The notes under the pieces were generated by a model that had not been told where the DNA came from, did no database searches, and saw nothing but the letters and a program-made list of their open reading frames with translations. A program made the position numbers and the translations under genes. A stretch of 64,000 nucleotides of DNA from Qipengyuania flava (lineage in GTDB: Bacteria; Pseudomonadota; Alphaproteobacteria; Sphingomonadales; Sphingomonadaceae), in the NCBI RefSeq assembly GCF_019448255.1, contig NZ_CP080410.1:248001-312000 (forward strand), in the 5' to 3' direction. This document shows, piece by piece, positions 30,674 through 43,174 of this stretch (positions within the stretch are counted from its first letter, which is position 1; each line of letters begins with the position of its first letter).

Positions 30674-32341
30674 ATGTTCGCTACCGAGCCGCCCGCCGAA
30701 ACCCGCGTTCCCGCACTCGACCGCCGCACCCTGCTGAAAGGAGGGCTGCTCGGCGCGAGTCTTGCCGGGGCGCCGCTTTCGGCGCAGATCGGCGCGGGCG
30801 CTGCGGGCTTCACGCATGGTGTCGCAAGCGGCGAGCCCGCGGCCGACGGCGTGCTGCTGTGGACTCGCTTCGTGGCCGGGCAGGACACCGCGCTTGCGTT
30901 CGAAGTCTCGCGTTCGCTCGATTTCTCGTCTCCCGAGGCGGGCGGCACGGCCACTGCTCGCCCCGAGAACGACTGGTGCGCGAAGGCGAAGGCCGAGGGC
31001 CTGTCGCCGGGCACCTGGTACTACTACCGCTTCGTCGCCCCGGATGGCTCGATCTCGGACGTCGGGCGCACCAAGACCCTTCCGGCGGGCGCCACGGAGA
31101 AATTCCGCATGGCGGCCTTCTCCTGCTCGAACATCGGCTTCGGCTGGTTCAACGCCTACGCCGATGCCGCTGCGGATGGCGGGTTCGACTGCGCGCTGCA
31201 TCTGGGCGACTATTTCTACGAATACGGGCCTGGCACCTATCCCTCGAACGCCGAGGCCGAACCCGGCCGCGTGCTGTTCCCCGCGCGCGAGGTCGTGAGC
31301 CTCGCCGACTACCGCGAACGCTACGCCACTTACCGCGCCGATCCCGACCTGCGCCGCCTGCACCAGCTGTTCCCGATGATCTCGGGCTGGGACGACCACG
31401 AAAGCGCCAACGATTCGTGGGAAGGCGGCGCGCAGAACCACCAGAGTGACAGCGAAGGCGAATGGTCGGTCCGCAAGGCCGCCGCCATGAAAGCCTACCG
31501 CGAGTGGATGCCGGTTTCCGACGAACCCTGGGCGGCCTATGAAATCGGCGATCTGGCCACGCTCTTCCGCCTCGAAACGCGCCTCGAAGCGCGCGCGGAG
31601 CAGTTTTCCTACGGCGATATCCTCTCGGGCAAGACCTCGGCCGAAGAGGCGATGGCCGCGCTCGTCGCGTTCCGCGAAGGCGACTATCGCAGCGCGGAAC
31701 GCCAACTGCTCGGCATGAAACAGCAAGCCTGGCTGTCTGACGGGCTGCGCCGCTCGGCAGCCGCAGGCAAGCCGTGGCAAGTGCTTGTCCAGCAGGTGCT
31801 GATGGGCAATCTCTCGACCGCGCCGACGCTGACCGAAGGGCTGCCGGGCGACCTGCCGGACTATATCCGCCAGCGCATTATCGCGGGCGCGATGGCGAGC
31901 CGTGCCGGCCTCCCGCTCAATATGGACGCATGGGACGGCTATCCGGCTGCGCGCGAGCGGGTGTTCAAAGCCTCGCTCGAAGCGGGCGCCAGCCTCATCA
32001 GCCTGGCGGGCGACACCCACAACGCCTGGGCCTTCGACCTCGATCACGAGGGCGAAAAGGTCGGCGTCGAGTTTGGTGTTCAGGGCGTCACCTCGCCGGG
32101 GCTGGAAAGCTACATCTCGCACATTCCGACCGACTGGGTCGAACGCGCGACAGTAGAGTACAATCGCCAGCTCAAATGGATGGACGGTTCGCGCCGCGGC
32201 TACATGGTGGTCGAGCTGACCCCCGGCAGCGCTTCGTGCGAGTATCGCTTCCTCTCGAGCGTGCGCGAGAAAGGCGCGAAGGTCAGCGACACGAAGCGGG
32301 TCACCACCCTGGCAGGCAGCCGCCAGCTGACGATGGGTTGA
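30674..32341 (+). CDS. phoD: alkaline phosphatase D, PhoD family, Tat-exported
   Basis: This 555-residue phosphodiesterase/phosphatase is exported by the Tat system (DRRTLLKGG near residue 20). Metal-site motifs of the PhoD family are HLGDYFYEYG, GWDDHESAND and LAGDTHNAW. It releases phosphate from esters in the periplasm. The start at 30674 has GGAG about 10 bases upstream and places the Tat motif at the usual distance; the frame is open to 30617. Its stop codon overlaps the -35 box proposed for the thrS leader. Confidence 0.92.
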   Translation: MFATEPPAETRVPALDRRTLLKGGLLGASLAGAPLSAQIGAGAAGFTHGVASGEPAADGVLLWTRFVAGQDTALAFEVSRSLDFSSPEAGGTATARPENDWCAKAKAEGLSPGTWYYYRFVAPDGSISDVGRTKTLPAGATEKFRMAAFSCSNIGFGWFNAYADAAADGGFDCALHLGDYFYEYGPGTYPSNAEAEPGRVLFPAREVVSLADYRERYATYRADPDLRRLHQLFPMISGWDDHESANDSWEGGAQNHQSDSEGEWSVRKAAAMKAYREWMPVSDEPWAAYEIGDLATLFRLETRLEARAEQFSYGDILSGKTSAEEAMAALVAFREGDYRSAERQLLGMKQQAWLSDGLRRSAAAGKPWQVLVQQVLMGNLSTAPTLTEGLPGDLPDYIRQRIIAGAMASRAGLPLNMDAWDGYPAARERVFKASLEAGASLISLAGDTHNAWAFDLDHEGEKVGVEFGVQGVTSPGLESYISHIPTDWVERATVEYNRQLKWMDGSRRGYMVVELTPGSASCEYRFLSSVREKGAKVSDTKRVTTLAGSRQLTMG

Positions 32342-32366
32342 GAAGTTAACTCCTCAGCGCTATCTG
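32338..32366 (+). promoter_or_regulatory. candidate promoter of the thrS leader
   Basis: TTGAGA (32338-32343) and TATCTG (32361-32366) are 17 bases apart. The predicted start would fall at or just before the ATG of the leader peptide, so that peptide might be read from a leaderless transcript. The call rests on sequence match only. Confidence 0.4.
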
Positions 32367-32373
32367 GTGGCGC

Positions 32374-32445
32374 ATGACGCAAGCGCGCATCACGACCACG
32401 ACTACCACCACCCCGGGCTTCCGGGGGCGGGCGGTCGCGATCTGA
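32374..32445 (+). CDS. threonine-rich leader peptide of thrS
   Basis: This is a 23-codon frame, ATG to TGA, with threonine at codon 2 and seven consecutive threonine codons (32392-32412: ACG, ACC, ACG, ACT, ACC, ACC, ACC), preceded by an isoleucine codon. It starts 32 bases after the phoD stop and ends about 125 bases before thrS. The composition and position match leader peptides of attenuation-controlled amino-acid operons. The run lies where a stalled ribosome would leave the next RNA segment free to fold. Confidence 0.75.
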   Translation: MTQARITTTTTTTPGFRGRAVAI

Positions 32446-32475
32446 CGCGACGCTCCGCCGCCCGGTTTCGGGCGG
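32428..32475 (+). promoter_or_regulatory. attenuator: two mutually exclusive hairpins before thrS
   Basis: CGGGCGG occurs at 32428-32434 and again at 32469-32475. CCGCCCG at 32458-32464 can pair with either copy, but not both. A ribosome halted on the Thr codons leaves the first copy free; a ribosome that reaches the leader stop codon (32443) covers it, so the second hairpin (7 bp, loop GTTT) forms. No T-run follows, so the outcome may be Rho- or translation-dependent. Confidence 0.65.
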
Positions 32476-32476
32476 T

Positions 32477-32515
32477 CGGCGTTTCCTCCCGAAATCGAAA
32501 TTCTTCCAAACGCCG
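32477..32515 (+). repeat. inverted repeat in the thrS leader
   Basis: CGGCGTTT (32477-32484) and AAACGCCG (32508-32515) form a perfect 8-bp stem around 23 bases, directly after the attenuator hairpin. It may extend the leader structure toward the thrS ribosome site. Confidence 0.5.
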
Positions 32516-32570
32516 CTTCAATGCCGCGCTCCCCTGTGTCATGGGCGCGGACAAGCAACGGTAAGAGACG

Positions 32571-34583
32571 ATGACGGAACTTCTGAAGATCAGCCTGCCC
32601 GACGGTTCGGTGCGCGAAATGGAGCCCGGCAGCACACCCGGAGATGTCGCTGCCGCTATCGGCCCCGGCCTCGCCAAGGCGGCAATCGCCGCGCGCGTGA
32701 ACGGCGAACTGCGCGATATCAACCGCCCCTTCGAAGGCGATGCAGAGCTCGCGCTGGTGACGAGCCGCGACGAGGAGGACGCGCTCGAACTCGCGCGCCA
32801 CGACTTTGCGCATGTGCTCGCAGAAGCGGTGCAGGCGCTGTGGCCGGGCACGCAGATCACCTTCGGCCCGGCGACGGACGATGGCTTCTACTACGATGTG
32901 AAAGCGCCCGAGACGCGCGAGCCGTTCAGCATGGACGATCTCCCCGCGATCGAGGAAAAGATGCGCGAGATCATCAAGGCCGACAAGCCGCTGCGCCGCG
33001 AAGTGTGGAGCCGCCAGCAGCTGATCGACAAGTGGGAAGCCGAAGGCGAAGTGTTCAAGGCCGAATGGGCCAAGGAATTGCCCGAGGACGAAGAGCTGAC
33101 GGTTTACTGGTCGGGCGAAGACTGGCTCGACATGTGCCGCGGCCCGCACCTTGCCTCGACCGGCAAGCTCGATCCGCAGGCCTTCAAGCTGATGCGCGTC
33201 GCCGGTGCCTACTGGCGCGGCGACCAGAAGAATGCGCAGCTCACGCGCATCTACGGCACGGGCTGGCTCAACAAGAAGCAGCTCAATGCCCACCTCATGC
33301 GGCTGGAAGAGGCCGCCAAGCGGGACCACCGCAAGCTGGGCCGCGAGATGGACCTCTTCCACCTGCAGGAAGAAGCCCACGGCAGCGTCTTCTGGCACCC
33401 CAAGGGCTACCGCATCTGGCGCGAGCTGGAAGCCTATATGCGCCGCAAGATGGACGGCGCGGGCTACCGCGAGATCAAGACGCCGCAGCTGATGGACGTG
33501 CGCCAGTGGGAGCAGTCCGGTCACTGGGGCAAATATGCGGAAAACATGTTCGCCGTGCCCGACATGGTGCCGGAGGTCGATGAAGAGAGCGACGGCGCTG
33601 CCTCACCCACGGTCGCAGCCGATGCCGACTGGATGGCGATCAAGCCGATGAACTGCCCGGCCCATGTGCTGGTCTTCAAGCAGGGCATCACCTCCTACCG
33701 CGACCTGCCGATCCGGCTGGGCGAAATGGGCTGCTGCCACCGCAACGAACCGCATGGCGCGCTCCACGGCCTGATGCGCGTGCGCCAGTTCACGCAGGAC
33801 GATGCGCATATCTTCTGCACCGAGGCTCAGGTGGTCGAGGAAGTTCGCGCCTTCTGCCGCCTCGCAGCGGAGGTCTACAAGGACTTCGGCTTCAGTTTCG
33901 CGATCAAGCTCGCCCTGCGCCCCGAAAAGCGCCTGGGCTCGGACGCGGACTGGGACAAGGCCGAACAGGAGCTGCGCGACGCGGTCGAAGAAGCCGGCAT
34001 GATGAGCGAGGAGTTCGGCTGGGAAGAACTGGAAGGCGAGGGCGCTTTCTACGCACCCAAGCTCGAATGGCACCTCACCGATGCGATCGGCCGCACCTGG
34101 CAGGTCGGTACGATCCAGGGCGACCGCGTCCTGCCCGAACGGCTCGATGCAAGCTATGTCGGTGAAGACGGCGAGAAGCACCGTCCGGTGATGCTGCACC
34201 GCGCGATCTTCGGTTCCTACGAGCGCTTCATCGGCATCCTGATCGAACACTTCGCCGGGCGCCTTCCGGTGTGGCTCGCCCCGACGCAGGCGGTGGTTGC
34301 GACCATCGTTTCGGACGCGGACGATTACGCCAAGGAAGCGGTCGCCAAGCTGGAAGCGGCGGGCATCCGTGTCGGCAGCGATCTCAGGAACGAGAAGATC
34401 AACTACAAGGTGCGCGAACACAGCCTCGCCAAGGTTCCGCACCTGCTGGTCGTCGGCAAGCGCGAGGCCGAGGAAGGCACCGTCGCCGTACGCACGCTGG
34501 GCGAGAAGGAGCAGCGGGTGATGAGCCTCGACGAGGCCATCGCCATGATCCGCGACGCCGCCACGCCGCCCGACCTGCGCTAG
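32571..34583 (+). CDS. thrS: threonyl-tRNA synthetase
   Basis: This class II synthetase charges tRNA-Thr. The 670 residues comprise an N-terminal TGS domain (about 1-65), the editing domain (about 70-230) with [12 protein letters not shown], the catalytic core and a C-terminal anticodon-binding domain (about 560-660). MNCPAH supplies the zinc Cys, and [16 protein letters not shown] motif 2 is followed by [18 protein letters not shown]. It is slightly longer than usual because of an acidic insertion near residue 340 ([16 protein letters not shown]). Expression is probably controlled by the Thr-rich leader upstream. Confidence 0.97.
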
Positions 34584-43111: not shown

Positions 43112-43143
43112 TCGCACGTCCAACAGCGTATGTCGCGAAAACA

Positions 43144-43174
43144 GGCGGCGGGAGCAGATCCCGCCGCCTTTTTT
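43144..43174 (+). terminator. Rho-independent terminator after the M23 gene
   Basis: A perfect 10-bp GC stem (43144-43153 with 43159-43168), a 5-base loop and six T residues lie 33 bases after the stop codon. Confidence 0.93.

Follow-up and report, generated by a model that had tools for sequence, protein, structure and literature searches.

The window analysed here, a 64,000-nucleotide (nt) stretch of the Qipengyuania flava genome, carries a complete thrS gene whose product contains the Pfam domains TGS, tRNA_SAD, tRNA-synt_2b and HGTP_anticodon and matches solved threonyl-tRNA synthetases (6vu9, expect value (E) 2.5e-215; 1qf6, E 1.3e-203). Upstream of it, in the gap that follows phoD, lie a candidate promoter, a short frame rich in threonine (Thr) codons, which we call thrL, and a series of segments able to pair with one another in more than one way (Table 1). 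The original prediction for this DNA was that these features place thrS under attenuation control, with ribosome stalling at the Thr codons as the signal. Here we describe the conservation of the leader, the covariation of its helices, which are named by their paired segments, and the step at which it would act.

Table 1. Features of the phoD-thrS gap and thrS, in window positions
Feature	Positions	Strand	Remarks
Promoter P1 (candidate)	32338-32366	+	-35 TTGAGA 32338-32343, 17-nt spacer, -10 TATCTG 32361-32366
Leader peptide gene thrL, MTQARITTTTTTTPGFRGRAVAI	32374-32445	+	23 codons; probably leaderless; predicted from frame and conservation
Putative regulatory seven-Thr run, ACG ACC ACG ACT ACC ACC ACC	32392-32412	+	unique in genome
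Hairpin 1:2	CCCCGG 32411-32416 with CCGGGG 32421-32426	+	would hide antiterminator arm if leader untranslated
Segment A (2), CCGGGGGCGG	32421-32430	+	conserved putative antiterminator arm; partner 32455-32465
Segment B (3), CCGCCGCCCGG	32455-32465	+	partner of A or C
Segment C (4), CGGGCGG	32469-32475	+	B:C hairpin is 32458-32464 with 32469-32475; C:E uses 32463-32472
Segment D, CGGCGTTT	32477-32484	+	partner of F
Segment E, CCCGAAATCG	32488-32497	+	partner: B:C loop and 3′ arm (32463-32472)
Segment F, AAACGCCG	32508-32515	+	partner of D
Block CTTC-N15-TGTGTCATGG (32516-32544) and possible hairpin G:H	32516-32550	+	candidate second promoter or thrS-specific RNA hairpin
thrS, threonyl-tRNA synthetase, 670 amino acids, complete	32571-34583	+	presumed controlled gene

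The thrL frame runs from an ATG at 32374 to a TGA stop (32443-32445) that leaves 125 nt to the thrS start. As had been predicted, its 23 codons include seven consecutive Thr codons; a further Thr codon lies at 32377. In the 2,852,278-base genome, the ACNx6 pattern occurred at one site, the thrL run itself (two overlapping matches), and its reversed control gave 11 matches. Among 226 thrS loci, a sample that counts some genomes twice and still includes a few loci set aside later (such as that of genome G019), 58 had a short frame 5′ of thrS with at least six Thr in eight codons, compared with 0 of 4520 dinucleotide shuffles. When at least five of eight codons were required, Thr came first with 77 loci, followed by alanine (17) and arginine (15). 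At this threshold Thr frames were present in 30/35 loci of the same genus, 25/89 of the same family, 22/79 named records and 0/23 loci from other families of the order, and in 4/4520 shuffles. The leaders followed a common plan (M..., the Thr run, P or R, mostly RGR.VA, stop), with a length of 20-23 residues in 66/74. In 68 aligned leaders, positions 1 and 2 of the last four Thr codons were invariant or at least 90% conserved and position 3 was not, a pattern that arises partly by construction, since the rows had been picked for a Thr-rich frame. These results confirmed that the Thr-rich leader is real and conserved, and the conservation of its frame suggests that thrL is translated. The codon ACT made up 110 of the 476 Thr codons in the leader runs and 61 of the 1338 in thrS coding sequence, being about five times commoner in the runs. 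The Thr frame was preferred over a longer GTG frame on the same DNA (32367-32564). The genome was also searched for five-codon runs of histidine and phenylalanine, the only other amino acids checked, as signs of further synthetase leaders; two histidine runs and one phenylalanine run were found, none of them a leader and all within long stop-to-stop frames (262, 776 and 408 codons).

Thr leaders preceded thrS in 32/35 usable genomes of the genus (36 loci). A weaker test, at least four Thr in eight codons, was passed by 33/35 genus loci, with G019 a false case that passed through an upstream phosphatase frame. In that genome the phosphatase-like frame reaches almost to the F segment, and F, the CTT...CATGG block and thrS are kept. 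In all, 92 loci passed this test, of which 12 were first set aside by eye (L020, L025, L061, L065, L073, L088, L105, L130, L148, L205, L206 and L209). From the remaining 80, seven were left out of the alignment for an unusual thrS distance (L026, L037, L040, L114, L154, L159 and L203), duplicates were merged, leaving 69, and L144 was dropped by eye, which gave the 68 rows of alignment A1; alignment A2 holds the 52 of these with less than 85% identity. A covariance model, R1 (127 positions, 21 pairs, built from 52 sequences), later found a match for three set-aside rows, by genome or by locus (G157 for L088, L206 and L209), and these were reinstated; the final set of 81 leader-positive loci omits 11, namely nine of the original twelve plus L114 and L203. 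One locus left out, L130 (genome G136), carries nine Thr codons in a row before thrS in another design without an R1 match, and is possibly an independent Thr leader. In four leaderless loci from Sphingomonas and relatives (L181, L195, L197 and L218), a recurrent stretch, CTTGCCTATAT...GGCATAAG...GC, lies close 5′ of thrS and may be either a promoter or another regulatory element.

R1 found the element in 102/298 genomes of the family, belonging to 36/96 genera, with one match per genome. Searches of a class sample of 385 genomes gave strong matches in 4 genomes of the family and weak ones in 3 others (E 0.001 to 0.008), and among 147 genomes of the order there were 24 matches within the family and, beyond it, 2 weak ones (E about 0.004). 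One of the class-sample matches from beyond the family, in G583 (E 0.001), falls within a long coding frame and was taken as chance. Because the filters of these many-genome searches were stricter and the model was built from the family, absence elsewhere means only that no close relative is present. Among named records, 23/80 carried the element at an R1 score of at least 30 bits, including Qipengyuania, Erythrobacter, Porphyrobacter, Parerythrobacter, Parapontixanthobacter, Pelagerythrobacter, Altererythrobacter, Allopontixanthobacter, Croceicoccus, Blastomonas, three Sphingomonas, 3/6 Novosphingobium and 1/7 Sphingopyxis. On a tree of threonyl-tRNA synthetase (ThrRS; 81 rows, 24 with a leader), the leader label required 8 changes, compared with about 21 when shuffled, a pattern that would fit either an ancient element lost in places or some transfer.

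The choice of thrS as the target, part of the original prediction, held up across the family: in 101/102 cases the R1 match shared contig and strand with thrS and lay upstream of it. The remaining one (G125) sits at a contig end with the start of thrS directly behind it, while thrS itself was scored on another contig. Over all same-contig cases the distance from the end of the element to the thrS start had a median of 52 nt; it was 0-250 nt in 95 genomes and 564-580 nt in six, five of them from one genus and one from another. All six distant genomes (G066, G119, G306, G159, G221 and G269; loci L245, L246, L248, L288, L289 and L290) carry a 168-amino-acid frame of one family (MRYYIDTEFNGT...) between the element and thrS. 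A Pfam search found no family for this frame, which by eye we presume to resemble a 3′-5′ exonuclease.

The predicted overlap of the promoter with the phoD stop (32339-32341) was also found, and the start expected from P1 falls at the leader ATG or within 1-2 nt of it. Across the leaders, the arrangement TTGA.. - 17 nt - TAT.T. recurred upstream. The -10-like hexamer ended 6-8 nt before the ATG in 65/74 (allowed range 4-12), and 67/74 had a spacer of 17 in a best-fit search with this distance limited to 6-8 nt and the spacer to 16-18. A Shine-Dalgarno-like motif ahead of the leader ATG was seen in 1/74. The lack of T at -7 is usual among Alphaproteobacteria, according to an excerpt of PMC8407463. 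Because P1 is so close to the ATG, the 5′ end should fall roughly there, and the leader is likely to be translated with no Shine-Dalgarno site; judged from the position of the promoter, thrL is thus probably leaderless.

The pairing segments were compared by a swap test, in which the energy of the duplex formed by two segments from one species is set against that of segments exchanged between species. Paired z values below refer to 44 sequences with less than 80% identity and 30 with less than 70%, out of the 68. Helix D:F gave z -8.5 / -6.8, with 88.1% of cells paired and both-side changes in 6/8 pairs; at one of its pairs U-A stands in place of C-G in 10 sequences, and at another C-G is set against 19 U-A. 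For C:E the values were -8.6 / -7.2, 90.7% and 4/7 pairs, for hairpin 1:2 -4.9 / -4.3, 86.1% and 4/6 pairs, and for B:C -4.4 / -3.4, 96.2% and 1/6 core pairs. The A:B core, with 94.2% of cells paired, is near-invariant, so that the narrow swap test says little about it (z -1.0 / -0.8); in the wide window its z was -5.3, while 13 other pairings ranged from -2.1 to +2.8 in the same wide-window test. Two further candidates were dropped: a local hairpin F:G′ suspected by eye found no support (z +0.1 / +1.0), and a pairing A′:A″ around the leader stop was weak (z -2.2 / -1.6).

Since A:B excludes B:C, B:C excludes C:E, and C:E crosses D:F, the helices fall into two whole states, A:B with C:E and B:C with D:F. 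Pair counts were made on A2, whose structures were drawn by hand from the same sequences, which by itself tends to make them beat slid controls; 89.4% of cells were paired for 1:2, B:C and D:F and 91.9% for A:B and C:E. Cells changed on both sides numbered 64, compared with 25.4 in shuffles, for the former set and 26, compared with 7.0, for the latter, the shuffles leaving sequence relatedness in place. Together, the two kinds of test, species swaps and pair counts, support helices that exclude one another. The alternative pairing had been predicted between two copies of CGGGCGG (32428-32434 and 32469-32475) and one CCGCCCG (32458-32464), all of which are where they were reported. The exchange is backed by the swaps and pair counts, but its first arm had been misplaced: the conserved one is segment A, whereas bases 32431-32432 of the first CGGGCGG have no majority letter in the alignment. 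The exchanging helices C:E and D:F lie downstream of the hairpins first recognized. The comparison of homologous gaps, set beforehand as a refutation test, found the Thr run and the pairing segments kept.

That the gap is merely a conserved GC-rich spacer with a chance Thr run and no regulation is most improbable. Strong folding is general for GC-rich RNA, and the distribution of the leader on the ThrRS tree is patchy, but the null tests on the Thr run, the swaps and the pair counts contradict chance, as do the single, thrS-linked R1 match per genome and the fixed spacing.

This spacing bears on how a ribosome would act on the helices. The A core could be located in 63/76 leaders; the distance from the last Thr codon to it was 13 nt in 54/63 and from it to the stop 12 nt in 57/63, and 55 of the 59 leaders listed had 3-12 nt from the stop to B. 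With such fixed spacing, a ribosome within the Thr run leaves A free and a ribosome at the stop covers it. Minimum free energy (MFE) folding gave A:B with C:E when the RNA was free from 32416, B:C with D:F when only 32458-32518 was free, and 1:2 with B:C without a ribosome. The exclusive helices are placed so that stall and stop would select between them, as in classic attenuators, and the MFE folds agree with this in part only.

Taken together, we read the element, with a probability of about 0.8, as a ribosome-mediated attenuator that acts in cis and tunes thrS to the charging of tRNA-Thr. The RNA would begin at the leader ATG or beside it, and translation of the leader would need no Shine-Dalgarno site. 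Under a shortage of charged tRNA-Thr, the ribosome would stall in the seven-Thr run and keep A out of hairpin 1:2; A would pair with B, C would be left for E, D:F would be hindered and RNA polymerase would proceed into thrS. With tRNA-Thr charged, the ribosome would reach the stop and cover A, B:C and then D:F would form, and expression would fall. If the leader is not translated, 1:2 and B:C would form and expression would likewise be low. The response to Thr-tRNA, the direction of the switch and transcription elongation as the affected step are what we infer from this arrangement.

Several observations weigh against this reading, besides the relatedness left in the pair-count shuffles. When the RNA was hidden to 32427, as it would be with the ribosome at the last Thr codon, the MFE fold contained B:C and not A:B, and with 32458-32573 free it had B:C without D:F. 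Since B:C is retained in the fold from 32428, effective stalls should come early in the run, or cotranscriptional folding matters. Further pair types in the state B:C with D:F numbered 32, compared with 28.8 in shuffles, and 39/500 shuffles reached that count. Within the genus, G004 lacks the leader, G008 has a degenerate frame, and G019 (L025) lacks both promoter and leader and retains thrS. In the genomes with the inserted 168-amino-acid frame there is perhaps a promoter-like stretch just 5′ of thrS (by eye, in G066 and G119). Finally, as the original prediction had pointed out for this locus, no T-run follows the second hairpin: at least five T in 8 nt after B:C were found in 0/68 leaders, and the longest T-run before thrS was four. 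A Rho-type site was mildly enriched (40/68 leaders, compared with 775/2000 random pieces of the window), an excess too mild for us to adopt it as the explanation.

The absence of a U-run from all 68 leaders means that a classic intrinsic terminator is absent and makes any assignment of the regulated step provisional. A strong terminator-like hairpin of the ordinary kind, followed by a T-run, lies elsewhere in the window (43143-43169) and suggests that ordinary terminators are in use in this genome. Transcription is in our judgement probably the regulated step, and control of translation or mRNA decay is unlikely. In that latter case the helices would alter ribosome access to, or decay of, thrS mRNA with no termination, for which the 0/68 leaders with an intrinsic terminator speak. 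However, segments A-H showed no covariation with the stretch around the thrS ribosome site (z -0.8 to +2.4), and sequestration of that site by them was rejected; the 168-amino-acid frame between element and thrS in six genomes also argues against its direct masking and in favour of an effect on transcription. For the attenuator itself we tentatively propose, as a possibility short of probable, that successive exchanges, first of A:B or B:C and next of C:E or D:F, relay the position of the ribosome. The structure that decides would then lie beyond the usual terminator position and stop transcription without a U-run, perhaps with Rho or a paused polymerase, and this arrangement would be standard in Erythrobacteraceae.

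The block between F and thrS raises a different alternative. Its consensus is CTTC-N15-TGTG.CATGG, and CTT stood exactly 23 nt ahead of CA in 72/81 leader-positive loci. The possible hairpin G:H would pair CCGCGC (32524-32529) with GCGCGG (32545-32550), and these segments covary (z -4.2 / -5.3). The block is a candidate for a second promoter or for an RNA hairpin. A fully matching 32516-32544 motif occurred in the genome at this site only; as a general promoter the motif was rejected, with 59 matches at up to two mismatches, one of them full, compared with 39 in the control. That thrS is expressed mainly from such a second promoter, or is autorepressed by ThrRS at G:H, with the Thr leader as a minor input, seems to us fairly unlikely. 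The fixed, promoter-like distance, the covariation of G:H and the retention of the block in G019 despite the loss of its leader favour this view, as does the presence of TTGAC or TTGCC near thrS in 80/122 loci without a leader, compared with 11/81 with one. Yet CATGGC, the -10-like part, fits sigma-70 poorly. Where a leader is present, the best promoter score near thrS was 6.56, no better than the 6.68 of shuffles, and in this genome the full motif had no second occurrence. The UGU that might mimic the Thr anticodon is not invariant (63, 55 and 62 of 68).

If attenuation by the Thr leader is correct, an essential synthetase gene is governed by the charging of its own tRNA through leader translation across much of an alphaproteobacterial family in which the same tests found no T-box and no pairing that masks the ribosome site. 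It would be a clean, conserved case in which to ask how an attenuator can act with a leaderless leader gene and no U-run; R1 annotates the element in about a third of the sampled family genomes.

Known control of thrS by ThrRS or threonine supply includes the Escherichia coli thrS operator and the Bacillus thrS T-box. In operators of the E. coli type, ThrRS binds hairpins that occlude the ribosome site; here, no pairing of segments A-H that covaries with that stretch was found, and G:H may be a candidate ThrRS site. No T-box family match was obtained in Rfam up to E 5 for 31500-33500. The Rfam threonine operon leader family was likewise unmatched, the four matches up to E 5 being all far below gathering scores, none a bacterial leader family, and taken as chance. 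The classic attenuators of amino acid operons and pheST combine a regulatory codon run, a 1:2 / 2:3 / 3:4 exchange and a stall/stop geometry. The present element is like them in all three, and differs in its target, a Thr synthetase gene, in the additional helices C:E and D:F beyond four segments and in having no intrinsic terminator; it would work like a classic attenuator but fails that one defining feature.

Among the matches listed in our literature search, none dealt with a Thr leader upstream of thrS in Sphingomonadales, and older comparative surveys may hold an earlier prediction. The rarity originally claimed for Thr-leader control of a synthetase gene is softened by such precedents: an excerpt of PMC1262725 lists attenuators of pheST, trpS and leuS as known or proposed, and one of PMC8079986 proposes a leaderless thrL with two Thr codons before thrS of Streptomyces lividans TK24, without a U-rich stretch. 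An alphaproteobacterial parallel is rnTrpL/peTrpL of Sinorhizobium meliloti, the trpL attenuator, whose leaderless mRNA starts with AUG, as predicted for thrL. Unlike the element described here, it has Trp codons and trpE as its target. Its attenuated RNA and peptide act in trans (excerpt of PMC10117765). The closest precedent is the proposed S. lividans thrL, which shares a short Thr-codon leader before thrS, a transcript from the first codon, as predicted here, and a hairpin without a U-rich stretch. It differs in that it encodes 18 amino acids with two Thr and was described by RNA sequencing in one strain (excerpt of PMC8079986), whereas the leaders analysed here, from a different phylum, carry seven or eight Thr, occur in many genera and show an exchange of helices backed by covariation.

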